Shown here in pieces: positions 22,030-39,510 of a stretch of DNA of 39,853 nucleotides. The position numbers were made by a program, and so were the translations under genes. The notes under the pieces were generated by a model. That model saw nothing but the letters and a program-made list of their open reading frames with translations. It did not search any database and was not told the DNA's origin. The DNA is from Actinomycetes bacterium. GTDB lineage: Bacteria > Actinomycetota > Acidimicrobiia > Acidimicrobiales > RAAP-2. Each line of letters opens with the position of its first letter. Position 1 is the stretch's first letter. The stretch covers positions 1-39,853 of the forward strand of contig JAJYWF010000011.1 of assembly GCA_021791635.1 (NCBI GenBank), written 5' to 3'.

Positions 22030-22106
22030 GGGGCTATAGCTCAGTTGGTTAGAGCGCAGCACTGATAATGCTGAGGTCCGTGGTTCAAATCCACGTAGCC
22101 CCACCA
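22030..22106 (+). tRNA. tRNA-Ile (GAT anticodon)
   Basis: Complete cloverleaf: acceptor stem GGGGCTA (22030-22036) pairs with TAGCCCC (22096-22102), D arm GCTCAGTTGGTTAGAGC, anticodon stem CAGCA/TGCTG closing the loop CTGATAA with anticodon GAT, and T arm GTGG/CCAC around TTCAAAT. The discriminator A is at 22103 and CCA (22104-22106) is encoded. Its 3' end is the insertion point of the integrated element to the right; the gene remains intact. Confidence 0.97.
22070..22106 (+). other. Predicted attL core (3' half of tRNA-Ile)
   Basis: Tyrosine integrases of this type recombine within the anticodon to T-arm part of a tRNA gene. The element begins at this end and the tRNA is intact, so the core should be a segment of 22070-22106 that is duplicated at the unseen right end. 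The exact crossover cannot be set from one end. Confidence 0.5.
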
Positions 22107-22223: not shown

Positions 22224-22243
22224 GCCATCTGCATAGAGATGGC
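22224..22243 (+). promoter_or_regulatory. 7-bp hairpin abutting the xis start codon
   Basis: GCCATCT (22224-22230) and AGATGGC (22237-22243) are perfect inverted repeats with a 6-base loop, ending exactly at the base before the xis ATG. No Shine-Dalgarno sequence is visible, and the stem occupies the place where the ribosome would bind. It may be a repressor operator or an mRNA hairpin limiting Xis synthesis. Confidence 0.55.
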
Positions 22244-22570
22244 ATGGAACCAAACCAAGCAAATGACCAAGGCACCACGACCGCTCCGGCCTTGCCCGAG
22301 CTGTGGGACGAGCAACGCCTGGCCGACTACCTCGGCGTCGGGCTCCGGTTCGTGCGGCGACTCTGCGAGGAAGGGCGGATCCGCTTCATCCTCGTCGCCC
22401 GGCACCGGCGGTTCGACCCGGCGGACGTCGCGGCCTACATCGAAGCCGAGAAGCGGGGACCGGACGGGGACCAGGCTCCTGTACCTCGGTTCTCTCCGGC
22501 CACCAAGCGCCGGCCCGGCCGGCCCATCGGCTCTGGCCGGTTCGGCAACACCCGGACCGGGATTCGGTAA
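22244..22570 (+). CDS. xis: Excisionase-type helix-turn-helix protein
   Basis: A 108-residue DNA-binding protein. Residues around LWDEQRLADYLGVGLRFVRRLCEEGRI form a MerR/Xis-type winged helix (given by its ends LWDEQRLADYLG and EEGRI), followed by RHRRFDPADVAAYIEAEKR. The C-terminal third is basic and Gly/Pro-rich. Proteins of this family bend att DNA and direct the integrase toward excision. ATG 22244 is chosen over an upstream in-frame ATG at 22154 because the longer version would read through the repeat sites and the hairpin. Its TAA overlaps the integrase ATG by one base, so the two are coupled. Confidence 0.8.
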   Translation: MEPNQANDQGTTTAPALPELWDEQRLADYLGVGLRFVRRLCEEGRIRFILVARHRRFDPADVAAYIEAEKRGPDGDQAPVPRFSPATKRRPGRPIGSGRFGNTRTGIR

Positions 22571-23697
22571 TGGCCCGATCACCGGGCATCCGGCGCCACG
22601 GTCCGGGGTGGGAAGCCCGTGTGACCGTCAACGGTGAGCACCTCTCGGCGACCTTCGAGACCTTCTCCGATGCCGCCGCCTGGCGAAGCGAGCAGGTTGC
22701 CCGCCGCCGGCGGTCTCGCACCGTCAACGCACACAAGCAGACCTTCGACGAGCTGTGGGGGCAGGTGTCCAACGACAGGCCGCTAAGGCACAACACCGCC
22801 GTCCGCAACGAGTCGGCCTACCGCAACTACGTCCAGCCGTGGTTCGGTGACGTGCCGATCCACAAGATCACCAGGACCCATGCCATCGAGTGGGTGCAGG
22901 CGATGGTCGATACGGGGCTGGCACCGTCGACTGTCGTCCGGGTGGTGGCCGTGGCAGCAGGCTGCATCCAGCGGGCGGTCGACCGGGAGATGGTGGACCG
23001 GAATCCCTTCCGGCGCATCCCCCTCCCCAGGGTCGAGGACAATGAGCGCCGGTTCATCACCGCCGAGGAGGCTCACCATCTGGAGTCGGCGATGGACCCG
23101 TGGTGGGCACTCGTGGTGCCATTCGCTCTGGACACCGGACTGCGGATCGGGGAACTGGCTGGTCTGGAGGTCCGGGACATCGAGTTCAACTCGCCGTCGT
23201 GGGTGGTGCACGTCCGCCGGATCGTCTCCGACGTCCAGGGGCACGCCCGGATCGGACTGCCCAAGACCAGAGCAGGCATCAGGGCGGTGCCCACGCTCAC
23301 CCGTCCGGTGGCCGAGCGCCTGGCGGTCCACATCAGCGAACGGGGCCTCGGCCCGGACGACAAGCTCTTCACCGGTCGCAACGGCGGCATCATGCGCCCG
23401 ACCAACTGGCGATCCAGGGTTTTCCGCCCGGCTGTGGAAGCGGCCGGGCTCGGACCCGAAGTGACGCCGCACTCGCTCCGCCACGGCGCTGTCGCCCGCT
23501 GGATCGCCGCCGGCCAATCGGACCCCTACGTGCTGTCCCGGTGGTTGGGGCACTCGACCCCGGTCATCGTCTACCGGACCTACGCACACCTCCTGCCGCA
23601 GGACACCACCGCCATCACCGAGAAGATGGAGGCTGAGGCACTGGCGGCACGAGGGGGAGAAGGGGTGGCGTCGTCGGTCGTGAAGATCCGGCCATGA
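22570..23697 (+). CDS. int: Tyrosine integrase
   Basis: A 375-residue phage-type integrase. The N-terminal arm-binding region is GPGWEARVTVNGEHLSATF, followed by the SAM-like core-binding domain (NYVQPWFGDVPIHKITRTHAIEWV, named by ends). The catalytic domain has R192 in DTGLRIGEL, a Lys in PKTRAGIRAVP, H301 and R304 in HSLRHG, H328 in LGHS and the nucleophile Y338 in YRTYAHL. All residues needed for activity are present. It would catalyse integration at the adjacent tRNA-Ile. The ATG overlaps the xis stop by one base. Confidence 0.95.
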   Translation: MARSPGIRRHGPGWEARVTVNGEHLSATFETFSDAAAWRSEQVARRRRSRTVNAHKQTFDELWGQVSNDRPLRHNTAVRNESAYRNYVQPWFGDVPIHKITRTHAIEWVQAMVDTGLAPSTVVRVVAVAAGCIQRAVDREMVDRNPFRRIPLPRVEDNERRFITAEEAHHLESAMDPWWALVVPFALDTGLRIGELAGLEVRDIEFNSPSWVVHVRRIVSDVQGHARIGLPKTRAGIRAVPTLTRPVAERLAVHISERGLGPDDKLFTGRNGGIMRPTNWRSRVFRPAVEAAGLGPEVTPHSLRHGAVARWIAAGQSDPYVLSRWLGHSTPVIVYRTYAHLLPQDTTAITEKMEAEALAARGGEGVASSVVKIRP

Positions 23698-23730
23698 GCA
23701 CGATCTGAAAACCCCGCTCTCTATACGGGC
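23698..23730 (+). promoter_or_regulatory. Element leader, copy 1 (type A)
   Basis: This 33-base gap between int and the next gene contains CACGATCTGAAAACC, then CCCGCTCTCT, then exactly 8 bases (ATACGGGC) to ATG 23731. It matches the leader at 32932-32964 in length and in 24 of the 25 positions from CACGATCTG to CTCTCT apart from one G/A change. There is no Shine-Dalgarno sequence. Promoter, operator or translation signal cannot be told apart. Confidence 0.7.
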
Positions 23731-24747
23731 ATGAGCACAAACACCCAGCCAAGACAGCCCAGCGGGACCCCGGTCGGCGGCCGGTTCGCCGGCAAGGCCA
23801 ATCCGGAACCTATGGACGTTGTCCTCGAAGTCCCCGCTGAGACGGAGCAAGGAGAACGAGTCGTCTCTCTCGATACAGCGGCCTTCACGCTGATCGGCGC
23901 ACTCAACGCACGGGCAGTTGCCTCTGGCTCGTGCCCGGTGTGCCACGGCGAGGCTTCTGCCGGCACCATCAGCCATCGACCACGGTGTCCGGTGACCGGA
24001 CTGGGGCGTGCGATGCGTGCGGATCGGAGGATCTCGCTCTCCCCGACGGCCCTGCGTGAGCATTGGTCGCACCTCGACGACACGTCGACATCTATGGCTG
24101 GTGCCACCGACGAGGATCTACTCAAGATCGCCGACGCAGTGCTGGACGACGACTACATCTGGAACGTCTTCGACGAAGCACTCGCCAACGCTCGGGACAG
24201 GTTGGGGATCGAGCAGTCGTCCCTCGGGATACGGGTTGGCCGCGGCGACCTCGCAGCGATCGACAAGGCGATCCGAAACCTCGGCTACAGCCGGTCGGGA
24301 TTCATGACGTACAAGGTGGGGCATGACGGTGGTATCAAGGGCATCGTGGTGCAGTCGGGGCGTCGGAGTGCCCTCGTGACTTCGGGCGATGACTGGGGCA
24401 CGGGCTTTGTCGTCGGTGATGTCGACTCGCCTGCCACCAGCAGCGACATTCCAGACGAACGGGACGTGCCCGACACTGGGAACACGCTGGACGACCTCGC
24501 CAGGTCGCTCGCCAAGCACGTCGGATCGCCACCCGAAAAGCGACAGGACGCAGCCGAGACTGTTCCGGCCACCATTCCCGATCAGTCCTTCCAAGCGGTG
24601 CTGGAGAGCGAAGGAACTTGGTCCTGGACCGCCATCGCTGCCGAGATCGGCAAGCCTGCTGCCGAGGACCTGTTCAAGCGGTCCGGCGGCTCGTTGGGCA
24701 CGGCGATCGCCATGCACCAAGAGGTCGCACAAGCCGAGCAGTCGTAG
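23731..24747 (+). CDS. Element protein of unknown function with PSGTPVGG N-terminal motif
   Basis: A 338-residue protein. Residues 7-19 read PRQPSGTPVGGRF, closely matching the start of the protein at 32965. The middle has CPVCHGEA and HRPRCPV, a possible zinc-binding set, and the C-terminal part FQAVLESEGTWSWTAIAAEIG looks like a small helical domain. Motifs of this N-terminal kind are widespread on actinobacterial plasmid and phage proteins of unrelated body sequence, to my knowledge without an assigned role. It follows the integrase and is the first gene behind a conserved leader. I do not recognise the body of the protein. Confidence 0.7.
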   Translation: MSTNTQPRQPSGTPVGGRFAGKANPEPMDVVLEVPAETEQGERVVSLDTAAFTLIGALNARAVASGSCPVCHGEASAGTISHRPRCPVTGLGRAMRADRRISLSPTALREHWSHLDDTSTSMAGATDEDLLKIADAVLDDDYIWNVFDEALANARDRLGIEQSSLGIRVGRGDLAAIDKAIRNLGYSRSGFMTYKVGHDGGIKGIVVQSGRRSALVTSGDDWGTGFVVGDVDSPATSSDIPDERDVPDTGNTLDDLARSLAKHVGSPPEKRQDAAETVPATIPDQSFQAVLESEGTWSWTAIAAEIGKPAAEDLFKRSGGSLGTAIAMHQEVAQAEQS

Positions 24748-24779
24748 GGGCGCTCGCCTCTCCCGCCCTCTCCATGGTC
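24748..24779 (+). promoter_or_regulatory. Element leader, copy 2 (type B)
   Basis: The 32 bases from the upstream TAG to GTG 24780 hold GCTCGCC, CCCGCCCTCT and 8 bases (CCATGGTC). The copy at 28545-28576 has the same length, and 30 of 36 bases match when the stop codon region is included. The match places the ligase start at GTG 24780 and not at the nearby ATGs. Confidence 0.7.
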
Positions 24780-26918
24780 GTGATGAGCCACGACGAATTC
24801 TCAGCCCTTGCCGACAGACTCCGCTCTGCCGCAGCCGCCTACTACGCAGGTGACGGCACCCAGCTCATGGACGACGCCACCTACGACGCCGGTATCAGCG
24901 AGCTGCGGACCATGGCCGCCGAGCATGGCTGGACCGATGCCGACGACCTGTTGACACAAGTGGCCGGGGGCCAGGGAAGCGTCGGTCGTGATGGCGCTGG
25001 CAGCGATACAGACGGCGTCCCCCACGAGGTCCCCATGCTCTCGCTCGACAACGCCATGGACGACGACGAGTTGCAAGCATTCTTTGATCGGGTAGCGCAC
25101 AAGACCGGAGTGCCGACCGACGACCTGGCGTGGGTGGTCGAACCGAAGTTCGACGGCATGGCCTTGTCCGTGCGCTACCACGACGGGAAGATCGCCAGGA
25201 TCGTGACCCGTGGCAACGGCCTCGTCGGCGAGACAGTCGGCCACGTCGCCCGGCACGTCTCCGGCATCCCCGCCGAGCTGCCCGGTGAGGCGAGTGTGAC
25301 GGTGGTCGGCGAATGCGTGATGACCCACGAGGACTTCGCCGAGGCCAACCGGATGCGTCTGGAGCACGGCGAGCGCCCGTTCGCCAACCCACGCAACGCC
25401 GTGGCCGGGTCGCTGCGGGCTAAGAACCGGGACTACCGGGTCCCGATGACCTTCATCGCCTACGGTGCCCACGCTCCCGCCCCGGACCCGACGGCGTACA
25501 CGACTGATCCGATGCCCGAGCGGTACTCGATGACGATCAGTCGGTTGCACAACCTCGGGTTCACGACTGCGGCTGACGTTGTCGGCAACCAGCCGGTCGC
25601 CAGGGGCTCAGCCGGCGCCATGGCTCAGATCGCCCGCATCGAAGAGCTGCGGCAGACCTTCTCGATGGACACCGACGGGGCCGTCATCAAGGCCGACAAC
25701 CCCCACATCCGAGACGCGATGGGCGAGGGCAGCCGGTCTCCCCGCTGGGCCATCGCCCGCAAGTTCGCTCCCGACACCCGTGAGACGGACCTACTTGACA
25801 TCGAGGTCGCCGTGGGCCGGACCGGGAACCTCTCGTTCACCGCCAAGGTGGCCCCGGTCAGTGTCGGCGGAGCCACCATCTCGTCGGTCACCGTCCACAA
25901 CGTCTCGGAGATCGCCCGCAAGGGGCTGCGCCTGCCGGGACCCGACGGTACTGCTCAGCGGGTCGTGGTCCGGCGAGCCGGGGAGGTCATCCCCGAGATC
26001 GTCGGCGTGGCCGACGTCAGCCCCGGCGAGGACAAGACGGTGCCCTTTGTGCCACCCAGCCTGTGCCCGAACGGCCACGCACTCGACACCACCGGCGTCA
26101 TCTGGAGCTGCGTGCTCGGACGGGACTGCACCGTCTCGGCCGGCATCCGCTACGCCGTGAGCCGTGACTGCCTCGACATCGAAGGCATGGGGACCCAGAT
26201 CACCGACGCCCTCGTGGGCAGTGGCATCGTCAACGACGTGGCCGACCTGTTCGGCCTCCGGGTGACAGACCTGCTCACGGTCCCCCGCCTGGGTGAGTCC
26301 AACGCCACCAAGATCATGTCGCAGATCGACAAAGCCCGGACTCTGCCGCTCGCCCGCATTCTGACGGCACTGGGGATCAAGGGGACGGGCCGGTCCATGT
26401 CCCGGCGCATTGCCCGCCACTTCGGCACGATGGGTGCCATTCGGGCTGCTACCGCCAATCAGATGGCCGAGGTCGAGGGGATCGGACCCATCAAGGCCCC
26501 GAGCATCGTCGAAGAGATTGCCGAGCTGGCTCCGGTGCTGGACCGGCTCGAAGAAATGGGGATCGGCTCCGCAAGAAACATGGATGCCGCACCCCCTTCT
26601 TCTGTGGAGGGGGCGGTGAGCGAATCTCCTGTCGCTGGTGCTGACACCGCCCCCTCCGCCCTGCCACTGGCTGGCAAGTCGGTGTGCGTGACCGGGGCCA
26701 TGAGCGGGGCGTTGGCGGGCATGAGCCGCAACGACGTCAATGAGCTGATCGAATCGCTCGGAGGCAGGGCGGCATCGAGCGTGTCGGCCAAGACCGACCT
26801 GCTGCTCACCGACGACCCGGAGTCCGGCACCGGCAAGGCCAAGAAGGCACGGGAGTTGGGGGTCGAGATCGTGAGTCCTGACGAGTTCGCCAGGCGGTAC
26901 ATGGGGGGTGTTTCGTGA
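24780..26918 (+). CDS. ligA: NAD-dependent DNA ligase carried by the element
   Basis: A 712-residue LigA-type ligase. Domains in order: Ia (ADRLRSAAAAYYAGD), the adenylation domain with the lysine motif EPKFDG (K123), FANPRNAVAGSLR, DGAVIK; the OB fold with VGRTGNLSFTAKVAPV; a zinc finger; helix-hairpin-helix repeats; and a C-terminal BRCT domain from about residue 640. The zinc finger has C429, C444 and C450, but the second Cys of the usual CxxC is Gly, with His433 next to it (CPNGH). It seals nicks using NAD. Being inside the element, it is presumably not the host housekeeping copy, though that copy is not in the window. Start chosen from the shared leader; ATG 24774 or 24783 are alternatives. 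Confidence 0.93.
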   Translation: MMSHDEFSALADRLRSAAAAYYAGDGTQLMDDATYDAGISELRTMAAEHGWTDADDLLTQVAGGQGSVGRDGAGSDTDGVPHEVPMLSLDNAMDDDELQAFFDRVAHKTGVPTDDLAWVVEPKFDGMALSVRYHDGKIARIVTRGNGLVGETVGHVARHVSGIPAELPGEASVTVVGECVMTHEDFAEANRMRLEHGERPFANPRNAVAGSLRAKNRDYRVPMTFIAYGAHAPAPDPTAYTTDPMPERYSMTISRLHNLGFTTAADVVGNQPVARGSAGAMAQIARIEELRQTFSMDTDGAVIKADNPHIRDAMGEGSRSPRWAIARKFAPDTRETDLLDIEVAVGRTGNLSFTAKVAPVSVGGATISSVTVHNVSEIARKGLRLPGPDGTAQRVVVRRAGEVIPEIVGVADVSPGEDKTVPFVPPSLCPNGHALDTTGVIWSCVLGRDCTVSAGIRYAVSRDCLDIEGMGTQITDALVGSGIVNDVADLFGLRVTDLLTVPRLGESNATKIMSQIDKARTLPLARILTALGIKGTGRSMSRRIARHFGTMGAIRAATANQMAEVEGIGPIKAPSIVEEIAELAPVLDRLEEMGIGSARNMDAAPPSSVEGAVSESPVAGADTAPSALPLAGKSVCVTGAMSGALAGMSRNDVNELIESLGGRAASSVSAKTDLLLTDDPESGTGKAKKARELGVEIVSPDEFARRYMGGVS

Positions 26919-27205
26919 TGGCGAAAGGCCAGACTGTGCTCCAGTATTACGACGACCACCTCGGACGCACTTGGGCTAGCAGGCTCTCTGAGCATCGACT
27001 GATCGAGCTTGGATCGATATCCTGCCCAACCGACTACGCGGTACGGAACTATCGTCGGCCAAACCATCCAAAGTTCTTCGGCAACCGCAGTGGACTGGAG
27101 CAGGCCGTCCGACGCTCTCTCTCCAGGAGAACGTTTCCGGACCGGGAAGAGCGTCTGCGCCAGATGGTCTCTATGCTTCTCAGTGAACTAGGCGATGAGA
27201 CATGA
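26915..27205 (+). CDS. Small basic element protein
   Basis: A 96-residue protein starting at GTG 26915 (GTGATG, four-base overlap with ligA) or ATG 26918. It has a Tyr/Asp/His-rich start (YYDDHLGRT) and an Arg-rich C-terminal helix region. I do not recognise a family. It ends four bases inside the MazG-like gene, so the three genes form a translationally coupled run. Small proteins next to phage ligases are sometimes partners, but nothing in the sequence shows this. Confidence 0.6.
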   Translation: MMAKGQTVLQYYDDHLGRTWASRLSEHRLIELGSISCPTDYAVRNYRRPNHPKFFGNRSGLEQAVRRSLSRRTFPDREERLRQMVSMLLSELGDET

Positions 27206-27591
27206 GTACACCGCAAGAGCAGGTAGCACAGTTCCATCGTGCGACTGACACTCCGATCGTCTCATCCCCGGCCTATCCACCGAAGGATCGCCGCGATCTC
27301 CGCGTGGTGCTCCTGCAAGAGGAACTCGACGAGGTCATCGCCGCCATGGCAGAGGGAGACGTCGCCCATGTGGCGAAGGAGCTTGCCGATCTGCTCTATG
27401 TGACCTATGGAGCGGCCTTGGAGTGGGGCATCGATCTCCGGTCCGTGATGGATGCTGTCCACGAATCGAACATGGCGAAGATAGGACCCGACGGCAAGGT
27501 TGCACTCCGCTCCGACGGGAAGGTGATCAAGCCACCCGATTGGGAACAGCCAGACATTGCTGCTGTCCTTGCCAACCAGGATCGGCTGTGA
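27202..27591 (+). CDS. MazG/PRA-PH-like NTP pyrophosphohydrolase
   Basis: A 129-residue all-alpha NTP pyrophosphatase. The metal-binding pattern is visible as LLQEELDEVI followed by KELADLLYVTYGAA, the ExxE...ExxD arrangement of the HisE/MazG superfamily. The C-terminal SNMAKIGPDGK and DGKVIKPPDW segment is the hallmark of phage-type members. Such enzymes hydrolyse (d)NTPs or nucleotide alarmones to monophosphates; the substrate here is unknown. It overlaps both neighbours by four bases. Confidence 0.85.
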   Translation: MSTPQEQVAQFHRATDTPIVSSPAYPPKDRRDLRVVLLQEELDEVIAAMAEGDVAHVAKELADLLYVTYGAALEWGIDLRSVMDAVHESNMAKIGPDGKVALRSDGKVIKPPDWEQPDIAAVLANQDRL

Positions 27592-28055
27592 CCGCCACCC
27601 GCCGCTACGGCTTCTCCGGCAGTCGAACCATCACCGACACCGACCAACGCACCATCGACGACGTGCTGGGATCTCTCCTGCCCGGCAGCGAGTACACGAC
27701 CGGCGGCTGTATCGGCGTCGATACCATCGTCGGCCGTCGCATGTGGCTCGCTCACCAAAAGGCCACGCACCGGGTTGTGGTGCCCGCCGATCGCAGCCGC
27801 GTCTCCCCCTGGTGGATGCACCGGGCAATCCGCGAGGCAGGACCCGGCAGCGGCGTGCTGGTAGAAGAGATGCCGCCCAACACGACGTACAAGGACCGCA
27901 ACCAGCGAATCGTCGACCATTCCAACGTGCTGGTGGCTTTTCCGGCACATTCCGAAGACGACCCGAGGTCGAAGCGTTCGGGCACCTGGCAGACCATCCG
28001 CATGGCCCGCCGGGCCGGGCTCGAAGTGCTGGTGACGGTGCTGGGCGATGAGTGA
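27588..28055 (+). CDS. SLOG-fold protein (DprA/LOG-like)
   Basis: A 155-residue Rossmann-like protein of the SLOG superfamily. Key segments: YGFSGSRTI at the start, GGCIGVDTIVGRRM, VVVPADRSRVSPWW, RNQRIVDHSNVLVAFP, and SGTWQTIRMARRAG. In this superfamily these surround a pocket for nucleotide-derived ligands; members include DprA, the LOG cytokinin hydrolases and sensors in defence systems. GTG 27588 overlaps the MazG-like stop in a GTGA junction, which links the two nucleotide-handling proteins. The actual ligand is unknown. Confidence 0.8.
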   Translation: MTATRRYGFSGSRTITDTDQRTIDDVLGSLLPGSEYTTGGCIGVDTIVGRRMWLAHQKATHRVVVPADRSRVSPWWMHRAIREAGPGSGVLVEEMPPNTTYKDRNQRIVDHSNVLVAFPAHSEDDPRSKRSGTWQTIRMARRAGLEVLVTVLGDE

Positions 28056-28338
28056 CGACAAACGAGTGAACAAGCGGCGGAAGGCGGCGATGGCGGAATT
28101 TCTTGCTGATGTCATGGCCAGCGGGGCGTTGTCCGATCATGCTGAAGCTTCGGGCATTGTGGTGATAGTGGCGGACCCCGAGACCAATCAAGTCCATGCG
28201 GTCGGTCCCTTCACGAAGGACGGTCCCGATGCGTTCGCCGTCGCCGATCGCCTACGTTCGCAACTGAACGGCCCCGACAACGACGGTCCCGATATCGGAG
28301 TCGACGTTGTCTATCTCTACCCTGGAGGAGCACCGTGA
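28048..28338 (+). CDS. Small element protein, unknown
   Basis: A 96-residue protein that overlaps the SLOG gene by eight bases. It begins with a basic helix (KRVNKRRKAAMAEFLAD) and continues with a short alpha/beta part (GIVVIVADPETNQVHAVGPF). The acidic and Gly/Asp-rich end GPDNDGPDIGVDVV suggests a strand after a turn. No family recognised. Confidence 0.6.
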   Translation: MSDDKRVNKRRKAAMAEFLADVMASGALSDHAEASGIVVIVADPETNQVHAVGPFTKDGPDAFAVADRLRSQLNGPDNDGPDIGVDVVYLYPGGAP

Positions 28339-28544
28339 CCTCCGGTGCTCGCAACGTCCATCGCCCTGCTGCCGCGCTTCGTCGTCTGGAGAACGAGGCG
28401 GCACAGGGGCAGTGCGCGCTGCACCCGGACCGACCGGCCGTCGGCTCGGTCACGCCCTGGACAAACCATCCAAGAGGCTGCTGTGCGACATGCGCCGACC
28501 AACTCCAAAAAATGGGCCGGACGATCCATTGGAGGTCCGCGTAG
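28335..28544 (+). CDS. Small zinc-ribbon-like protein
   Basis: A 69-residue protein starting with GTG 28335, which has GGAGGAG six bases upstream and overlaps the previous stop. CALHPDRPAVGS and CCATCADQLQK form a CxxH...CxxC set that could bind one zinc. Its TAG is the start of the type B leader copy at 28545. Function unknown. Confidence 0.6.
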   Translation: MTSGARNVHRPAAALRRLENEAAQGQCALHPDRPAVGSVTPWTNHPRGCCATCADQLQKMGRTIHWRSA

Positions 28545-28576
28545 GGCTGCTCGCCATCCCCGCCCTCTCCCTGGTC
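28545..28576 (+). promoter_or_regulatory. Element leader, copy 3 (type B)
   Basis: A 32-base gap with GCTCGCC, CCCGCCCTCT and 8 bases (CCCTGGTC) before ATG 28577. It aligns without gaps to the leader in front of the ligase. There is no Shine-Dalgarno sequence. Confidence 0.7.
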
Positions 28577-29116
28577 ATGGAGAGCAACGAGATCAAGCGC
28601 ACCGCCTTCCTGGCTCGATTGCAGCCTGGCGACTTCGTCAACTGGGTCACCTTCGACGGGTCAAGCGTTCACGAGGTACACACTGTCACCGACGACGAGA
28701 TCGTGCTGTGCCGTCCTGACGGCTCTGTGGGGACGCATTTTCCTCGCAACGGCGTCATCCACCACGACGCCTACGGCGGGTACGACGACTACCTCTGCCA
28801 GCCGGGGCCGACACAGCTCGAATACTTCCTCCGGCGCCGGTACCGCCGTGTGCTTGAAGCCGCCATCAAGGACATGGACGCCCAGAGCCTCGGGAGGGTT
28901 GCTGAGTTCGCCACCGATGTGAAGGAGGGGGTGGACCGACGCACCCTGTCCACCGGAGAGTTGCGGAAGATCGCCGACCTGCTCGATGCGGGCGAGGAAG
29001 CGTTCAGGGCACTGGAGAGACTCACTGGTCGCCCGGCGCCGATGTCCGGTGGAAGCGAGGTCCAGGACACCTTGCGCTCCATGGCCGACCAACTGGACCG
29101 GGACGGTGCCCGGTGA
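28577..29116 (+). CDS. Element protein of unknown function
   Basis: A 179-residue protein. The N-terminal third (FLARLQPGDFVNWVTF, VHEVHTVTDDEIVLCRPDG) looks like a small beta-barrel; the rest is helical and charged (YFLRRRYRRVLEAAIKDMD, TGELRKIADLLDAGEEAFRALERL, named by its first and last parts). ATG 28577 is fixed by the shared leader spacing. No family recognised. Its TGA overlaps the ASCH gene start by four bases. Confidence 0.65.
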   Translation: MESNEIKRTAFLARLQPGDFVNWVTFDGSSVHEVHTVTDDEIVLCRPDGSVGTHFPRNGVIHHDAYGGYDDYLCQPGPTQLEYFLRRRYRRVLEAAIKDMDAQSLGRVAEFATDVKEGVDRRTLSTGELRKIADLLDAGEEAFRALERLTGRPAPMSGGSEVQDTLRSMADQLDRDGAR

Positions 29117-29856
29117 AGGCCATCACCCTGCACCAACCGTGGGCGTCTCTGGTGGCCCAGGGGATCAAGACTATCGAGACCAAATCGTGGTCGACCCACT
29201 ACCGGGGTCGGCTGGCAATCCACGCATCTAAGCGCATTCCCGACGTCGAGATACTCGAAGACGGCCCGGCGGGAGAGCTGTTCGACGATACCCAGCCAGA
29301 CAACCCGGTCGTGGCCCAGTGGTGGAAGACCGAGCGGGCCGACTACCAGCCCGAGAGCATCCCCGCCGCCGAGGACAGGTGGAGCATCTGGACGCCGCGT
29401 TGCGACATCACTCCAATGCCACTCGGTCGGATCATTGCCACCTGCGAGCTGGTGGACGTCGTGCCAATCGTGGGGCGTTGGGAGTGGCGACCCGAAGAGG
29501 CCGACCGGTGTCGGGTGAGCGAAGAGCCCAACGACGGCGATCTGCGACACCAGCGGGGTGGGCTGTGGCTCACTGGATTCCGATGCTGGCCTGCTACTAG
29601 TGCTTCTCGGTCCCGCTGGTACGGCGGCAGTCCCGAACGCATCGAAGACCAGCGCCCCTACGGGGACTTCCGGCCCGGCCGGTACGCCTGGCTCCTCGCC
29701 GACATCAAGGCGACCACCGAGCGATGCCCGGCGTGCTGGGGCTCGGGGTCATACCCCTACCCGACCCGCATGGTCTGCCAGGTGTGTAACGCCAAGCTCT
29801 CGTGCGAGCCGGTACCGGCCCGAGGACGCCAGCGGTTGTGGGAGTGGTCCCCATGA
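29113..29856 (+). CDS. ASCH-domain protein with C-terminal zinc ribbon
   Basis: A 247-residue protein. Residues 1-40 carry the ASCH signature: KAITLHQPWASLVAQGIKTIE, then WSTHYRGRLAIHASK (the first is given by its ends in families as LHQPWA and GIKTIE). Later LGRIIATCELVDV and the W-rich RYAWLLADI strand complete the PUA-like barrel. The C-terminus has CPACWGSGSYPY and CQVC, a DnaJ-type zinc knuckle. ASCH domains bind RNA or modified nucleosides, and some hydrolyse acylated cytidine. GTG 29113 starts the frame with a four-base overlap. Confidence 0.85.
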   Translation: MKAITLHQPWASLVAQGIKTIETKSWSTHYRGRLAIHASKRIPDVEILEDGPAGELFDDTQPDNPVVAQWWKTERADYQPESIPAAEDRWSIWTPRCDITPMPLGRIIATCELVDVVPIVGRWEWRPEEADRCRVSEEPNDGDLRHQRGGLWLTGFRCWPATSASRSRWYGGSPERIEDQRPYGDFRPGRYAWLLADIKATTERCPACWGSGSYPYPTRMVCQVCNAKLSCEPVPARGRQRLWEWSP

Positions 29857-30128
29857 TGGCGCCACTACCTTCCTGCACTTGCGCTCACGTCAAGCTCGGC
29901 TCCGAGCGGACCGATACCCGGAACTGGGATCCGGACTGCCCGGCGCACGGCACCGAGTCCGACTGGTGGCGGTCTGAGGCTCAGGTCGCACAGCGTCAGC
30001 ACGACGGTACCAGGCTCTGGGTCCTCCAGACCCTTGCCCGACTGGGCCGGCAGGACCGGATCGACCCAAGCGCTGCACAAGAGATCCTGGCGGCTCTCGA
30101 TGGCTCACCGGAGACGAAGGAGGGCTGA
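29853..30128 (+). CDS. Small Cys/His-containing element protein
   Basis: A 91-residue protein with an ATGA overlap to the ASCH gene and GGAG upstream. It opens with SCTCAHVKLG and CPAHGTESDWW, a possible zinc-binding cluster of the CxC...CxxH kind, then a helical tail with a Gln/Arg-rich stretch. Unknown function. Confidence 0.6.
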   Translation: MMAPLPSCTCAHVKLGSERTDTRNWDPDCPAHGTESDWWRSEAQVAQRQHDGTRLWVLQTLARLGRQDRIDPSAAQEILAALDGSPETKEG

Positions 30129-30130
30129 TC

Positions 30131-30376
30131 ATGGCCTATGAAGGCGAAGTCGTCGCTCAACTCAGAGATGGCACCGAGATCCGGCGCATGACCGACGCCG
30201 AAGTGGCGTCAAGCGGCAGCCGAGAGCCGCCCCGGTACTGCATCGTCGGGCACTCGCACTGGAATCCAGCCAGCTCGTTCGCCTACGAGGCAGACCGCCT
30301 GGAGCGAGAGGCCAAGCTGTGGCGGGAGGCGGCGATGGTGATTGAGCTGCACAGCCGCCACAGCGCCCAGCGATAG
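30131..30376 (+). CDS. Small element protein, unknown
   Basis: An 81-residue protein with a strong AAGGAGGG ribosome-binding site nine bases before ATG. The start is a beta hairpin-like DGTEIRRMTDAEV, the end a charged helix (ADRLEREAKLWREAAMVIEL). It is followed by a 20-base gap before the VirB4-like gene. No family recognised. Confidence 0.55.
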   Translation: MAYEGEVVAQLRDGTEIRRMTDAEVASSGSREPPRYCIVGHSHWNPASSFAYEADRLEREAKLWREAAMVIELHSRHSAQR

Positions 30377-30396
30377 CTTCATCCACGATTCGCCGC

Positions 30397-32931
30397 ATGG
30401 TGGAGGGCATGGCAGGACGCCACAGCTCCTCGATGCCCACCACGCCACTCTGGCCGACCACGCTCCGCTCCAGGTCGAAGGACGGCCGCATCCGTGGCAC
30501 CGACGGCTCCGTGTGGCTCTACCGGGCCGTACCCATGGCCCCGGTGGCCGATGCCAGGTCGCCGGTCGAGGGCTTGGCGGTGGGCGAACCGCTTCGGCTG
30601 GTGCTGGACGACATCTCGGCTGCCACGGCTGTCCGGGTGCCTCGTCGGGGTATGGCGAAGTCGGGGTACCGGGACCTCCACATCCTGCTGGTCAACATCC
30701 CGGTACGGTTCACCCCTCCACGGGGATCGCAGCTCGCCGGTTACCTGTCAGCCATGTTTCCAGACGTCGCCGTTGATCGCCGGATGCTCGTGGTGGGCGT
30801 CAAGCTCAGAGACCAGATCGGCGGCGGGGACCACGGCCTGTCCAAAGCCATCGACTCGGTGGTGCAGACCCTCAGTACCGGGGTCGTTCCGATGTCCGAT
30901 TTCGACGCTGACTTCGCCATGGTGGACGGCATCATGGCGCGAGCCGGGCTCACCACGATGACCCCGGACGACTACCGGATCGCCAACGCATGGTGGAACC
31001 ACGGCTACTCGCCCGACGCTCCGTTGCTCGTCCATACCGACCACATCCACGTCTTCGGGTCGTCCGACTCTGCCCGGCTGGCGGCAACGCTGGTCGATCG
31101 AGACGGCGATGCCTCCTGTGGAGAATGGACATTCGCTGATCACCACACGGTGTCGTTCGGGTGCGTCCAGGACTTCGACCTTCCCTACGTCGACGAGACC
31201 AGCGTGGATGCCCAATGGGTGAGCAGTCTCGTCGAAGCAGGTGCCGTCTGTGTGTCCATCAGGGGCAAGTTGGAGCCACCACAGGTGACCCGTGCCGAAC
31301 TCCGCCGCCGCAAGAAGCAGGCCATCGACGACGAGGCTGAGCGAGCCAGCCAGAACAAGATGTCTCGCAGCGAGCTGGAAGAGCGCCTGGCCGAGCTGGA
31401 TGAGATGGAGGCGGTTTACGCCATTGGCGGGCCGCCGGTCCTGGTCGAAGCATCGACCGTCGTCGCTTTCACCGGCTTCGACGAGCGGTCAGGGTACGAC
31501 ATGCGCGAGCTGGCCCTCGGCCGCGGTGTGCTGCTCTCGACGATGACCGCCCGGCAGAACACCGCCATGGCAGAGACCTGGCTGGCGTCGAACGTCAGAG
31601 CCGTGCCGTACCTGCACGACATCCCCTCGCACACCCTGGCTGCAAGTGGGCTGCCGAACCTCTCGACGGTTGGCGACCGAGACGGTGCTCTGGTCGGGTT
31701 CACCGAGCGTGACCATCAGCCGAGCTACATGACAGCCACGGCGTCGGCGGACAATGACGCCCTGCCCATTTTCGTCTGTGCGGGCAGCGTAGGGTCGGGG
31801 AAGACGGCGATCATGCAGTTTCTTGCCGATCAGTTCTCCCACCAGACCAACAAACACGGTCAGCGTCGCCCTGTGCTCATCGTCGATCCAAAAGCCGGTA
31901 GTGACTTGAGTCCCGTCGTCCTCGGTGCCGGAGGGCGAGTCGCATCGCTCGACGAACTGACCTCGTCGGACGGCGTGTTCGACCCACTGCGGTTTGCGGC
32001 CCGCAAAGAGGTGGGGGTCGAACTGGCGGCCAGCATGTTGATGTCGATCAACCCTTGGGGGACGGGCAAGCTCGACTACGAAACCCCGCTCATCAAGGCC
32101 CTGTCTTATGGGGCGGACAAGGGCGCCGACTGCACTGGTGTCGCCCTCAAGACCGCTCTCGACGACGGTCAGGCGCCCAAGGAGATGGTCGAGCGGGTGT
32201 TCGACTTGGCCGGTGCGTCGCCGATGTTCCGGGCCTGCGTCGGCGTCCAGGCGGGCGGGCCGCGCCTGCGCTCGTCAGAGGGCATCACCCTCATCAAGGT
32301 GGGACAGGCGTACCTGGACCTCCCCGAGCCCGGCGCTACTGATAGTGCCACCCAGCAGCAGCGCATCGCCCTTGCACTGGTCCGGATGATGGTCTACGGG
32401 TCAGCGATGGCACTCACCGGTCGCCAAGGGGTGCTCATGCTGGACGAGGCGTGGGTGATGCTGTCAGCGGGCCGGAGCGAGGTCGAGCGACTCGGCCGGC
32501 TGGCCCGAAGCCAAGAGGTGCTCCCCATGCTGTTCACTCAGCGGGTCACCGACGCCACCAACGCCGGACTCTCGGGGTACATCGCCAGAGGCATCGTGCT
32601 GCCCATCGAGGACCGCACAGAAGCCGATGCGGCCTGCGAGCTGTTCCGGCTGGAGCCGACGCCCGAGCGCATCGCCCGGATCACGGCCAAGGCTTCTCTC
32701 GGTGGCATCGGAGGTGCGGGTGCAGGGGCTCCGAACTGGTCGTCCATGCGTGCCCTGCGGGACCCGACGACCGGCAGGGTGCTCAGGGGTGCTGTGGGCA
32801 TCTATGTCGACCTCTCCGGGCGGGCGGTCCCCGTCGAGGTGAAGATCCCCAGCGACTTCCTGGCGAAGGCGTCGACCAATCCGGAGGACATCAGGCGGCG
32901 CCTGGCGGCGGCCGGCGAAAGTCCTGGTTGA
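30397..32931 (+). CDS. VirB4/TraC-like ATPase
   Basis: An 844-residue ATPase of the type IV secretion VirB4 group. The N-terminal 430 residues hold the family's interaction region, including a coiled-coil-like charged stretch (RRRKKQAIDDEAERASQNKMSRSELEERLAEL, named by its ends). The ATPase domain has Walker A GSVGSGKT (K469) and Walker B VLMLDEAW (D683, E684), followed by a RSQEVLPMLFTQR sensor-type segment. VirB4 proteins power pilus assembly and substrate transfer at the membrane. No VirB6, coupling protein or relaxase is visible in the window. ATG 30397 lacks a clear ribosome-binding site; ATG 30409 is an alternative. Confidence 0.85.
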   Translation: MVEGMAGRHSSSMPTTPLWPTTLRSRSKDGRIRGTDGSVWLYRAVPMAPVADARSPVEGLAVGEPLRLVLDDISAATAVRVPRRGMAKSGYRDLHILLVNIPVRFTPPRGSQLAGYLSAMFPDVAVDRRMLVVGVKLRDQIGGGDHGLSKAIDSVVQTLSTGVVPMSDFDADFAMVDGIMARAGLTTMTPDDYRIANAWWNHGYSPDAPLLVHTDHIHVFGSSDSARLAATLVDRDGDASCGEWTFADHHTVSFGCVQDFDLPYVDETSVDAQWVSSLVEAGAVCVSIRGKLEPPQVTRAELRRRKKQAIDDEAERASQNKMSRSELEERLAELDEMEAVYAIGGPPVLVEASTVVAFTGFDERSGYDMRELALGRGVLLSTMTARQNTAMAETWLASNVRAVPYLHDIPSHTLAASGLPNLSTVGDRDGALVGFTERDHQPSYMTATASADNDALPIFVCAGSVGSGKTAIMQFLADQFSHQTNKHGQRRPVLIVDPKAGSDLSPVVLGAGGRVASLDELTSSDGVFDPLRFAARKEVGVELAASMLMSINPWGTGKLDYETPLIKALSYGADKGADCTGVALKTALDDGQAPKEMVERVFDLAGASPMFRACVGVQAGGPRLRSSEGITLIKVGQAYLDLPEPGATDSATQQQRIALALVRMMVYGSAMALTGRQGVLMLDEAWVMLSAGRSEVERLGRLARSQEVLPMLFTQRVTDATNAGLSGYIARGIVLPIEDRTEADAACELFRLEPTPERIARITAKASLGGIGGAGAGAPNWSSMRALRDPTTGRVLRGAVGIYVDLSGRAVPVEVKIPSDFLAKASTNPEDIRRRLAAAGESPG

Positions 32932-32964
32932 TCACGATCTGGAAACCCCGCTCTCTCACAGTGC
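32932..32964 (+). promoter_or_regulatory. Element leader, copy 4 (type A)
   Basis: A 33-base gap right after the VirB4-like stop, with CACGATCTGGAAACC, CCCGCTCTCT and 8 bases (CACAGTGC) before ATG 32965. It is the partner of the copy after the integrase, in front of the second PSGTPVGG gene. Confidence 0.7.
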
Positions 32965-33468
32965 ATGAGCATTGTGACCCACCAAGCCAGGCAGCCGAGC
33001 GGCACTCCCGTCGGCGGCCAGTTCGCCGCTGTGCAGCACCCGGACGGCCCCGACCTCGCACCGACGGTCGTACCACGAGAGCAGCTCGACGCTGTCATCA
33101 ACGGCAAGATCAAGACCTGGGTCGAATCGAACCTCAACGGCTACGCCGAGACTGGCGTGCTCGACCTGATGGACATCGACGAAGACGAGGCGATCGAGCG
33201 GTACGGGCCGGAGATCGGTGGCTTCATGGCCCGCCTTGTCATCACGGTGCAGTCGGACACCGTCGAGCTGTCACCTGCCGTCTACGAGGGGCCATTGGCC
33301 GGGCCGGCCGAGTACGACACCGGTGGGCATGTCATGGTGATCGATATCGGTCGCCACGGCCGGCGCACCGTTGTTGCCAGCTCGATGTTCTCCGGTACAG
33401 ATCCACCGGTGTTGCCGCCGTTCTCGTCTTGGGTCGAGAAGGCAACCTACGTCGCCGCCGAGCCGTAG
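32965..33468 (+). CDS. Second element protein with PSGTPVGG N-terminal motif
   Basis: A 167-residue protein. Residues 8-21 read ARQPSGTPVGGQFA, the same motif as in the 338-residue protein at 23731, while the bodies show no obvious similarity. The remainder is acidic in the middle (MDIDEDEAIERYGPEIGG) with a beta-rich end. Its last 22 bases overlap the end of the convergent CAP-repeat gene, so the two transcripts are complementary there. Function unknown. Confidence 0.65.
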   Translation: MSIVTHQARQPSGTPVGGQFAAVQHPDGPDLAPTVVPREQLDAVINGKIKTWVESNLNGYAETGVLDLMDIDEDEAIERYGPEIGGFMARLVITVQSDTVELSPAVYEGPLAGPAEYDTGGHVMVIDIGRHGRRTVVASSMFSGTDPPVLPPFSSWVEKATYVAAEP

Positions 33469-35057
33469 TACCGGGCGTTGCCGAAGCTGAACACGCCACC
33501 ATCTCGGGCGACCTCCCAGTACCCCTGGCCTGTGGGCGTGGCAGCCATGCCCACGACCGGCTGGTTGAGTGGCTTGCCACCCATCGAGCCGTAGAACCGG
33601 GCGTTGCCGAAGCTGAAGAGCCCACCGTCGCTGGCTACTTCCCAGTACCCCTGGCCTGTGGGCGTGGCAGCCATGCCGACGACCGGCTGGTTCAAGGGTT
33701 TGCCCCCCATCGAGCCGTAGAACCGGGCGTTGCCGAAGCTGAAGAGCCCGCCGTCGCTGGCCACCTCCCAGTACCCCTGGCCTGTGGGCGTGGCAGCCAT
33801 GCCCACGATGGGCTGGTTCAAGGGTTTGCCTCCCATCGAACCGTAGAACCGGGCGTTGCCGAAGCTGAAGATGCCACCATCTCTGGCCACTTCCCAGTAC
33901 CCGCCACCTGTGGGCGTGGCAGCCATGCCCACGATGGGCTGGTTCAAGGGTTTGCCTCCCATCGAACCGTAGAACCGGGCGTTGCCGAAGCTGAAGATGC
34001 CACCATCTCTGGCCACTTCCCAGTACCCGCCACCTGTGGGCGTGGCAGCCATGCCCACGATGGGCTGGTTCAAGGGCCGGCCGCCCATGGAACCGTAGAA
34101 CCGGGCGTTGCCGAAGCTGAAGATGCCACCATCTCTGGCCACTTCCCAGTAGCCGCCGCCTGTGGGCGTGGGCGTCAAGGTGTCGATGGGGAAGTTGGAG
34201 ATCGAGTTCGGAGGTGGAGCTGTTGTACCTGTGTTCACTCCAGCTCCAAGGAACGGCACCACGTTGCCGTTCCAGGTGAATGTGGGATCGGACAATGTGA
34301 CCCGTGGAGCCACGAATATCGCCGCATACTCCGTTTTGGGGTATCCACTGGCTGTAGTTACTCCAAACCCTGCACCGGCAAAACATCGGGTGCACTGTTT
34401 CCCACCCATAAGGATGATGTCACGATGCGCCCAACACCCGGTGGTTGTTGTTGGACCGTTGCAGTCGCCGTCGATCGTCCCTGTCCTTCCGCCCCACCCA
34501 TCCATATACATCCACTCGTAGTCAGCGACGAGTGCGTTCTCCTGTCCGCCAGCCCAAATGGATCCATATGCGTCGATGTATTTGACGAGAGTTGTTGTTG
34601 CAAGGACTGGATCTCTTGGGTCTGTCCACGGGGACATTGACGAAGCCTGTGCATCGGCATTGAGTTGCGGAAGAAGTCCTACATACGGCGGCATCCCACG
34701 AGCAACCCGCTCCAAGTTGGTAACAACGAAGATTTGCTGGGCAACGGTCAATTGAGCCCAGTTCGTTGGCAACGCCATCGGTCCCACTCCTTCGAGTGCC
34801 CGAGCGTGATCGATGGCGTGCAGTATCGGGTCGATGCAGGATGGCATGTAATTCGTTGGGGTACAGCCATAGATTGTCGCACCGCCCAGTGTCATTGGAA
34901 TGTTGGCCGGCGGATTCTGTGATTGCATAACGCTGACGAACGGGCGCTTACTCGCAGCGCCGGCCGAGGTGGACAACAGCGCACTGGTGACAAAGACACC
35001 AGTCGTGACCAAGCAGGCCGCTGCAATGGCCATCAGGACTTCGCGATGCTGCCTCAT
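33447..35057 (-). CDS. Secreted CAP-domain protein with tandem WD/kelch-like repeats
   Basis: A 536-residue exported protein with GGAGG before ATG 35057. A signal peptide covers about residues 1-35 (LMAIAAACLVTTGVFVTSAL...AGA). Residues 60-230 resemble the SCP/CAP fold: NWAQLTVAQQIFVVTNLERV, GSIWAGGQENALVADYEWMY, and GCWAHRDIIL. From about residue 300 come five full 42-residue repeats and a truncated sixth, each with GYWEVAxDGGIFSFGNARFY. Such repeats are common in Acidimicrobiia surface proteins and are thought to form a beta propeller. The last unit stops after 30 residues, and the stop lies inside the convergent gene. Confidence 0.85.
   Translation of the reverse strand: MRQHREVLMAIAAACLVTTGVFVTSALLSTSAGAASKRPFVSVMQSQNPPANIPMTLGGATIYGCTPTNYMPSCIDPILHAIDHARALEGVGPMALPTNWAQLTVAQQIFVVTNLERVARGMPPYVGLLPQLNADAQASSMSPWTDPRDPVLATTTLVKYIDAYGSIWAGGQENALVADYEWMYMDGWGGRTGTIDGDCNGPTTTTGCWAHRDIILMGGKQCTRCFAGAGFGVTTASGYPKTEYAAIFVAPRVTLSDPTFTWNGNVVPFLGAGVNTGTTAPPPNSISNFPIDTLTPTPTGGGYWEVARDGGIFSFGNARFYGSMGGRPLNQPIVGMAATPTGGGYWEVARDGGIFSFGNARFYGSMGGKPLNQPIVGMAATPTGGGYWEVARDGGIFSFGNARFYGSMGGKPLNQPIVGMAATPTGQGYWEVASDGGLFSFGNARFYGSMGGKPLNQPVVGMAATPTGQGYWEVASDGGLFSFGNARFYGSMGGKPLNQPVVGMAATPTGQGYWEVARDGGVFSFGNARYYGSAAT
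33465..34190. repeat. 126-bp coding tandem repeats
   Basis: The marker GTAG(A/T)ACCGGGCG recurs at 33465, 33591, 33717, 33843, 33969 and 34095, exactly 126 bases apart. The units differ at few positions, so they were duplicated recently. They encode the 42-residue repeats of the secreted protein. Confidence 0.95.
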
Positions 35058-38694: not shown

Positions 38695-39326
38695 GACGAC
38701 ATCGTCTCATCCGGGTGCGACAGGGCCATCGGCCCCACGTTGTGGGCGGCACAGCGAAGTGCCTTTTCCGCCCGGTTCTTCGCCGAGCGCCTCCCGTAGA
38801 GCCGGGCACAAAAACTGGTGAGCACTTCGACCATGTCTCTGACGAGATCGTCGGTTACCTCGCCCTCGTCGATGACCACCAGGCGGCGTCCATGGGCCGC
38901 CAGATCTGCTTCCACGAGCTCGGTGAACATGGGAGCCAGGCGGTCACGGTGCTCGACAACCACAGTGGTCACCTTCGGGTCGGCGAGCATCCGCCGGAGC
39001 TTCGACCGGGATCCATTCATTCCCGATCCGACCTCTGCCTCGATCCGCTCCACCGGATGGCCGGCCTTTGCTGCCCACTCGGAGAGCCGAGCCACCTGAC
39101 GGTCGAGGTCGGCCTTCTGGTCATGGGAGGACACCCGTGCATAGAGGCCCAGCGCAGAGACCGGCTTCGACGTCTGTGCATCGGGGGAGACCAGGATGGT
39201 CCGTTCGTTGATCCGGACTGCCGGCACCGGGAACGTTCCCTCGTGGAACCACCGATAGGCGGTCTGAGGATGGATGCCCTGGACCCTTGCCCACTCCGTC
39301 AGATTCACCCCTTGAACTGGCCGCAT
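38691..39326 (-). CDS. tnpA: IS607-family serine transposase (TnpA)
   Basis: A 211-residue protein. Residues 1-50 form a MerR-like helix-turn-helix (LTEWARVQGIHPQTAYRWFH, then RTILV). The serine recombinase domain follows with the catalytic motif LYARVSSHDQKADLDRQ, then VTTVVVEHRDRLA, VVIDEGEVTDD and the C-terminal helix FCARLYGRRSAKNRAEKAL. IS607 transposases of this kind cut with a serine nucleophile and use GG targets. ATG 39326 is chosen because the HTH domain starts there; the frame upstream belongs to the transposon end. Confidence 0.9.
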   Translation of the reverse strand: MRPVQGVNLTEWARVQGIHPQTAYRWFHEGTFPVPAVRINERTILVSPDAQTSKPVSALGLYARVSSHDQKADLDRQVARLSEWAAKAGHPVERIEAEVGSGMNGSRSKLRRMLADPKVTTVVVEHRDRLAPMFTELVEADLAAHGRRLVVIDEGEVTDDLVRDMVEVLTSFCARLYGRRSAKNRAEKALRCAAHNVGPMALSHPDETMSS

Positions 39327-39415
39327 ATCACTAGAACGCACGTACGTTGTGTATCGGGTACTTATCTGGCAGCAGTTCCGAACCCCGGCCTTGCTTGACG
39401 GCGTGACTATCCGCC

Positions 39416-39510
39416 CCGTACCGGAGTCGGAGAGTGACCGCAGCACGAGCCACTACAGCGACGATCCAAAGAGCGAGTGCGGCCCCGACGACGGCGAACA
39501 CGGTGCTCAT
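39416..39510 (-). pseudogene. N-terminal half of the membrane-protein gene split by IS607
   Basis: From ATG 39510 the frame encodes MSTVFAVVGAALALWIVAVV, a membrane helix, then RAAVTLRLRY up to the transposon border. Reading continues into the transposon and stops at 39331, giving a 59-residue hybrid. The ATG overlaps the stop of the upstream gene (ATGA). The remaining part is at 36861-36963. Confidence 0.75.

Follow-up and report, generated by a model that had tools for sequence, protein, structure and literature searches.

What do four short leaders do that resemble one another and stand immediately in front of four genes of one mobile element, each at the same distance from its start codon? 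The question is raised by a stretch of 39,853 nucleotides (nt) from an Actinomycetes bacterium of the order Acidimicrobiales (GenBank assembly GCA_021791635.1, contig JAJYWF010000011.1, positions 1 to 39,853), which we call the window, and in particular by a run of genes beside its integrase. The answer we favour, with a probability of about 0.6, is that the leaders are leaderless promoters of a single class, most likely read by an alternative sigma factor borne by the element. Transcription would begin with the start codon's first base and yield leaderless messenger RNAs (mRNAs). A conserved block at -18 to -9 would stand in for the -10 box of the host, at a fixed distance from the codon because the RNA must begin at the codon itself. 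With a further box near -35, which in several elements is common to the leaders of that element and varies from one element to the next, these would be promoters other than the host's usual TANNNT type and would need an alternative sigma factor of the element group. Our candidate for that factor is a sigma-like protein of 332 to 347 amino acids (aa) with an N-terminal GGQFA tag. We infer from sequence the transcription start, the sigma activity, the pairing of protein with promoter and the window's own use of such a factor.

The first-pass annotation of the window had reported that four gene starts follow the string CCCGCYCTCT and exactly eight more nucleotides, and so they do. CCCGCYCTCT-N8-RTG occurs at four sites in the window (23713, 24762, 28559 and 32947, all on the forward strand), and the RTG codons behind them lie at 23731, 24780, 28577 and 32965; in 100 shuffles of the window the mean was 0.03 sites and the maximum 1. 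The gaps that hold the leaders measure 33, 32, 32 and 33 nt in the order of the run, whereas at each of the ten remaining junctions between the excisionase and the last gene the reading frames either overlap or stand no more than 20 nt apart, just as had been said of them. The sorting into two pairs is also real. Type A comprises leaders A1 (23698 to 23730, core CCCGCTCTCT at 23713 to 23722) and A2 (32932 to 32964, the same core at 32947 to 32956), alike at 84% over 43 nt from 23695 and 32929. Type B comprises B1 (24748 to 24779, core CCCGCCCTCT at 24762 to 24771) and B2 (28545 to 28576, the same core at 28559 to 28568), alike at 80% over 51 nt from 24743 and 28540. In type A the similarity extends into the coding part, the A1 and A2 proteins sharing the N-terminal tag RQPSGTPVGG[QR]FA. 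One start proved less firm than had been supposed. The GTG at 24780, given as the start of the ligase gene, is flanked in frame by an ATG 6 nt before it (24774) and another 3 nt after it (24783), and because the start itself is ambiguous, the 8-nt register at B1 rests on the alignment with B2.

How special is the motif? In the window's own assembly, of 2.46 Mb, the motif matches five times, four of these in the window; the fifth, on contig C93, appears by eye to lie inside a gene of the opposite strand. Across the family a match turned up in 49 of 172 genomes, and one genome of 4.8 Mb (G036) likewise has five, spread over five contigs. The distinctive feature is four motifs at gene starts within 10 kb, and the possibility that the spaced motif is equally common elsewhere was checked: in the searched genomes it is not clustered. 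The first-pass annotation was right, too, that the four starts lack a Shine-Dalgarno (SD) sequence, since none of AGGA, GGAG, GAGG and AAGG occurs at -18 to -5. Nor does TANNNT occur at -14 to -11 in any of the four.

Leaders that mattered should be conserved in related elements, and they are. With the VirB4-like ATPase of the window as bait, we found a relative at 60% on an IMG/VR contig (L009, which is also our G458) and another at 64% in G085 (contig C41), the single one outside the window's own among 148 genomes; contigs from GTDB gave a single weak match, in a metagenome-assembled genome of Desulfovibrio. Leaders were then sought by comparing the 42 nt upstream of each candidate start with those of other starts in the same fetched region, by scanning with G085's own leader and by reading the DNA upstream of tag genes. 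Twenty more leaders of the same shape came to light in eight other genomes or records. G085 has seven, four on C41 and three on C14; their alignment has 57 columns, 21 of them invariant, and two boxes set apart by an 11-nt spacer that is free. G019 (contig C103) has a pair, GCCGCTCTCT-N8-ATG, which matches the window in core and distance. The DNA upstream of tag genes gave one leader in G046, one in G035 and three each in G079 and G458; G033 contributed two from a weight-matrix scan, one identical to the G035 leader, and G032 one, from the census of tag places described below. The window has four leaders, where the G085, G458 and G079 elements have seven, three and three. When 21 leaders are aligned, the window's included, C-17, C-14, T-11 and C-10 are invariant, T-9 is present in 20, and all 21 have C or T just 5' of the start codon.

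What varies is the core itself, which reads CCCGCYCTCT, GCTGCCCTCT, CTCCCATCT or GCCGCACACA depending on the element, with the register kept, and the upstream box near -35, which in several elements is common to the leaders of that element and differs from the next. The motif had been called element-specific. The term is right for the exact core and for the upstream box, whereas the core's shape is common to a group of elements.

Because part of the leader set had been chosen by likeness, we also used models built from sets found independently. The G085 and G019 sets had been found without using the window's motif. A model from G085 alone placed the window leaders at ranks 1, 7, 9 and 16 of 1,132 starts, and one from the G019 pair alone at ranks 1, 2, 3 and 7 of the same number. 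In leave-one-genome-out tests the scored leaders (21 of 22; the one left out, C41 21031, lies upstream of a 24-codon frame) took the top ranks in seven of seven genomes, and models trained without the window ranked its leaders 1 to 4 among 1,132 starts. A weight matrix built on the 21 leaders was also run over 6,814 candidate starts, among which the window's B1 and B2 do not figure since both sit deep in their open frames; the lowest training score was 13.1 and the best non-leader 7.5, and the scan yielded one new leader, with a score of 14.0. Finally, 198 genomes were searched with a covariance model built from the G085 leaders on sequence alone, and five had matches. Seven sites were in G085, all seven being its leaders, the window's A1 scored E 0.059, and the others were single weak matches, not placed, in G072, G093 and G124. 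By these comparisons we take leader A1 as certain and the type B leaders as the weaker link.

The position of the block bears on its function. A TANNNT about 12 nt 5' of the start codon is a known mark of leaderless genes in Actinobacteria (PMC3160421, PMC3898074). In stretches of the family that lie outside the elements, the commonest place for the first T of TANNNT is -12, with 16 of 967 candidate starts; -14 has 7, and the other positions have about 1.6 each. The conserved block of the leaders spans -18 to -9 and overlaps the place of the host TANNNT. The tagged genes show the two as alternatives. Among 52 tag places in the family, 46 were readable, and when these were tested for a leader, TANNNT at -14 to -11 and an SD-like sequence, in that order, they divided into 16, 14 and 12, with 4 having none. 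Five tag genes within the C41 array have no leader (three are SD-like, two have none of these signals). Two leaders, those of C14 6794 and C41 15520, sit between divergent genes, in junctions 109 and 93 nt long, and promoters are expected in such places. All of this, namely the near-fixed distance, the free spacer, the position of the core, the way it alternates with TANNNT and these divergent junctions, is in keeping with a promoter whose RNA starts at the start codon.

Megaplasmids of cultured Micrococcales widen the picture. Seven plasmid records (Paenarthrobacter, Pseudarthrobacter, Arthrobacter and Curtobacterium) contain a relative of the sigma-like protein at 26 to 29% identity, and all seven carry the ATPase as well, at 49 to 52%; the ATPase occurs in 17 records overall. 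Five of the seven were examined in detail. In each, the sigma-like gene, in tagged form, follows GCCGCAYACA, at 8 nt in four and at 7 nt in one. The pattern CCGCAYACA-N8-RTG is found 80, 87, 83, 22 and 46 times in the five whole records, and its reversal in none of them. Among 188 annotated genes in five plasmid regions, CGCAYACA occurs within 50 nt of a start 22 times, 18 of these at one offset and another 3 no more than 1 nt away from it. Counted the other way, 18 of 43 cores in these regions have an open start at a distance of exactly 8 nt and 15 have no start within 30 nt, other distances occurring at most twice each; the reversed core occurs once. None of the 21 genes with a CACACA core has an SD sequence and none a TANNNT, whereas 94 of 141 other genes have an SD (Fisher p 1.5e-9). 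On the related plasmids, therefore, the missing SD does distinguish the led genes, which in the window it does not. CGGTGA is often found at -38 to -33 upstream of the plasmid core.

Other start-anchored sequences were seen along the way. On the plasmids there is a second class, CGCATAG, which was met 23 times, 18 of them at -15 or -14, and a third, GCGCATG, at -16 of four genes. A pair of the CGCATAG-like class stands at 2122 and 5459 of G019 contig C103, and a pair of TCGGGGCACARCAYGGGY on the reverse strand of G085 contig C14, at 17047 and 19274. A second factor may use these classes as its promoters.

Who might read the leaders? When five genomes were searched for sigma region 2, the contigs in question yielded a single, weak match, inside the tagged protein C14 6794 (Sigma70_r2, Pfam E 0.0029). 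The protein has relatives in G458 (52%) and G079 (36%) and a fragment in G178; other matches of the relative search cover scarcely more than the tag. A leader precedes its gene in all eight cases examined, seven at 8 nt and one (plasmid L216) at 7 nt, and among the integrated elements it does so in G085, G458 and G079. In the same three a second tagged gene is led, a KTSC-like one (slightly below the Pfam cut-off in C14, its counterparts in G458 and G079 recognised by eye). As the sigma-like gene has a leader, it is probably self-activated. The likeness to sigma-70 region 2 is remote. All 17 NCBIfam families matched by the eight full-length members at E up to 0.1 are sigma factors (best 7.2e-05), five members matching TIGR02937 weakly; so are eight of the nine PDB sequences that the profile of the family matched at E up to 10 (best E 0.016), and the likeness falls at the same place in several members. 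The first 12 rows of a second structural comparison were sigma factors or, by entry titles, sigma chains of polymerase complexes. With matches below threshold and a poor predicted fold, we call the protein sigma-like, not a proven sigma factor. Core and protein both drift between elements, as those of a private sigma-promoter pair would.

Several points weigh against a sigma factor of the element. Sigma70_r2 is matched by only four of the eight members, at 16.3 to 20.9 bits against a cut-off of 24, the C14 member reaches 16.9 bits with TIGR02937 where 42.9 is needed, and no sigma match reaches a curated cut-off. The fold predicted from three sequences is poor (pLDDT 57); Foldseek found nothing for it at E up to 0.001, and the second structural comparison, on this same poor model, gave Z of 4.5 or less. 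The sigma-like protein has no relative in the window's assembly (E up to 1e-4) nor, tags aside, in four other genomes with leaders, G019, G046, G035 and G033. One plasmid encodes another sigma-70. The core is not the same in all elements, nor is its distance on the plasmids absolute, one of the 22 cases above lying at neither the common offset nor within 1 nt of it. The lack of an SD is not distinctive inside the window, where an SD-like tetramer precedes only 4 of the run's 11 other genes. And because some leaders were picked by likeness, the agreement among them is partly circular.

Much of this could also be read as leaderless promoters of the same class served by a different factor, either an alternative sigma of the host or a helicase-sigma fusion of a plasmid, with some other role for the sigma-like protein. 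The hosts have 8 to 12 sigma region 2 matches each, and the window's assembly has no sigma-like relative to offer. The fusion is a protein of 989 aa on plasmid pYJN5-1 (L217:192-3161), a DEAD-type helicase with full sigma-70 regions 2 and 4 and a helicase-associated domain, its gene preceded by the core CCGCACACA, so that a second candidate factor exists. We nevertheless think this reading unlikely, if the most serious of the alternatives. The sigma-like protein co-occurs with leaders in G085, G458, G079 and the plasmids, its own gene is led in all eight cases examined, and a tblastn search with the fusion in the window and related regions found no relative, the single hit (in C14) being in the helicase part. 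For the window itself, the factor may be encoded in a missing part of the element, or the host may supply it.

The first-pass annotation had offered three readings, a promoter for leaderless transcripts, a translation enhancer and a repressor operator, and it is the promoter that the evidence favours; the other two fit less well. As translation initiation signals, comparable to the Start-Associated Sequences (SAS) of cluster K mycobacteriophages (PMC3203893), the leaders would act in the mRNA, an RNA or protein binding the C-rich block and recruiting the ribosome to the start codon. The fixed distance to the start codon and the missing SD are what one would expect of such signals, and start-anchored repeats with a proposed translational role are a matter of record. 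Against it stand a second box near -35 across a free spacer, leaders in divergent junctions, the five tag genes of the C41 array that have no leader, and a block that takes the place of TANNNT at equivalent genes, and we regard the idea as improbable. Operators for a repressor or activator over ordinary promoters seem no more attractive, in spite of two things in their favour: immunity systems typically have sites that are repeated, directional and specific to the element, and the upstream parts differ between the type A and type B pairs. The block is bound to the start codon in a single orientation, and with TANNNT missing at led starts (none of 4 in the window, none of 21 on the plasmids) no ordinary promoter is visible beneath it. 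That the type A likeness continues into the tag might even make the leaders passive remnants of duplicated 5' cassettes, leader plus tag, spread by gene copying. This we consider very improbable indeed, as leaders also precede tagless genes (the window's ligase and B2, C41 22565 and G033 3918), the boxes are retained while the spacer is free, and the register persists although the core drifts.

Leaderless promoters read by an element-borne sigma factor are then our preferred explanation, and a broader proposal can be built on them, one we would place barely on the favourable side of even odds. It is that a private transcription system travels with integrative elements and megaplasmids, made up of a divergent, tagged, self-activating sigma factor and start-locked leaderless promoters whose core drifts (CTCTCT, CATCTAT, CACACA) within a near-fixed geometry, at up to several dozen start sites per plasmid.

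The element itself deserves a description (all of the genes named in this paragraph are on the forward strand). The led run starts beside a tRNA-Ile(gat) at 22030 to 22106 (ARAGORN), with a probable excisionase (HTH_17, 22244 to 22570, Pfam 5.9e-09) and then a tyrosine integrase (22570 to 23697, Phage_integrase, Pfam 1.6e-16). We take the tRNA gene as the probable integration site because the integrase adjoins it. A second copy of a 21-nt piece from the 3' part of the tRNA is absent from the assembly at up to one mismatch, a search that shorter or changed repeats would escape; as no second tRNA end was found, the element is probably truncated by the contig end, and its right end probably lies beyond. 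The division into four led modules (an unknown protein; ligase-MazG-SLOG; ASCH-VirB4; the last protein) had been drawn correctly as a matter of anatomy. Gene A1 (23731 to 24747, tag RQPSGTPVGGRFA) encodes a protein of unknown function with no match in Pfam or PHROG. The NAD-dependent DNA ligase (24780 to 26918; Pfam 2e-56, PHROG 2.6e-143) follows B1. B2 leads an untagged protein of unknown function (28577 to 29116, no match above a curated cut-off), after which come the ASCH-domain protein (29113 to 29856, Pfam 5.1e-07) and the VirB4-like ATPase (30397 to 32931, AAA_10, Pfam 1.4e-07). Gene A2 (32965 to 33468, tag RQPSGTPVGGQFA) again has no match in Pfam or PHROG. A1 was tried as the missing sigma factor and rejected, the tag alone aligning to the sigma-like family.

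Other features of the window are worth recording. Immediately 5' of the excisionase start is a perfect inverted repeat, GCCATCT-GCATAG-AGATGGC (22224 to 22243), whose GCATAG recalls the CGCATAG class of plasmid leaders; the repeat is possibly an operator or a further promoter. Right after the last led gene, a 126-nt unit is repeated in tandem at 33459 to 34171 (5.7 copies, 93% alike). On the reverse strand, at 36964 to 39446, a helix-turn-helix (HTH) serine resolvase gene is followed by one for a long protein with a weak match to Cas12f1-like/TnpB proteins, by the look of them an IS607-type pair. Elsewhere in the same genome a third tag gene lies on a short contig (C97, our locus L008, from 1501 onwards), with an HTH gene upstream; by eye the two resemble an AbiE-like pair.

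The tag has a distribution of its own. In the form RQPxGTxxGGQFA it heads unrelated proteins (ArdC-like, DUF7007, KTSC-like and sigma-like) in G085 (C41 and C14), G458, G079, G378 and plasmids L212 to L216; in G378, which belongs to another family, it is found at 12 places. A role as a transfer or processing signal is worth considering. Across the order, tags occur in 5 of 298 genomes including the window's own, and the tag-gene starts printed for that search are TANNNT-like, SD-like or without clear signal, none having a leader upstream. Viral contigs gave no relatives, whether queried with protein A1 (4 candidate stretches) or with a tag profile (56 stretches); two DNA patterns gave 3 and 26 stretches, again without a relative, none of the 29 lying upstream of a tag gene. 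Querying viral contigs with the sigma-like alignment returned only the record already in our set, and phage records had no match to the sigma-like protein.

Should the preferred reading hold, this group of mobile elements would switch their genes together, by means of a sigma factor of their own, and make leaderless mRNAs, and the annotation, expression and cloning of such genes would change. The diverged factors and cores of different elements would be a natural series for the evolution of sigma specificity. Direct testing is feasible since the megaplasmids reside in cultured strains, Pseudarthrobacter chlorophenolicus A6 among them. The 87 pattern matches reported above are those of its plasmid pACHL01; its tagged sigma-like gene is ACHL_RS22220, and another gene, ACHL_RS23625, carries a sigma-70 family annotation. 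The tag and the start-locked core are also practical markers for such elements in metagenomes.

Among the titles listed by our searches of open-licence literature, we saw no report of the leader motif. The nearest relation in function would be SigN (ZpdN) of the Bacillus subtilis plasmid pBS32, a sigma factor that, as its report describes, is borne by the element, is weakly ECF-like and activates its own gene together with private promoters sharing -35 and -10 boxes (PMC6751061). There the sigma factor is proven and here it is inferred; our putative promoters also differ in being leaderless and start-locked, with C-rich cores, a tagged protein and a home in integrative elements as well as megaplasmids. 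Against the ECF-type sigma-70 factors (TIGR02937, Sigma70_r2), the sigma-like protein has a weak region 2 likeness, stays below every curated cut-off and is unusual in its approximately 340 aa and N-terminal GGQFA tag. In appearance the leaders recall the SAS, which are likewise short directional repeats just 5' of many start codons in one element; the SAS consensus, given as GGGATAGGAGCCC, includes the SD core and lies 3 to 7 bp from the start (PMC3203893, PMC12699233). None of the four window leaders fits that consensus with its SD core, and the leaders stand 8 nt from the start with a partner box near -35. The leaderless TANNNT promoters of Actinobacteria, as described in PMC3160421 and PMC3898074, share with them a box about 12 nt 5' of the start codon, the lack of an SD and a pyrimidine before the start base; the difference is a longer block that is not TANNNT and is found in a group of mobile elements. 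By analogy, then, the present system looks like SAS and, if the sigma reading is right, would work like SigN.

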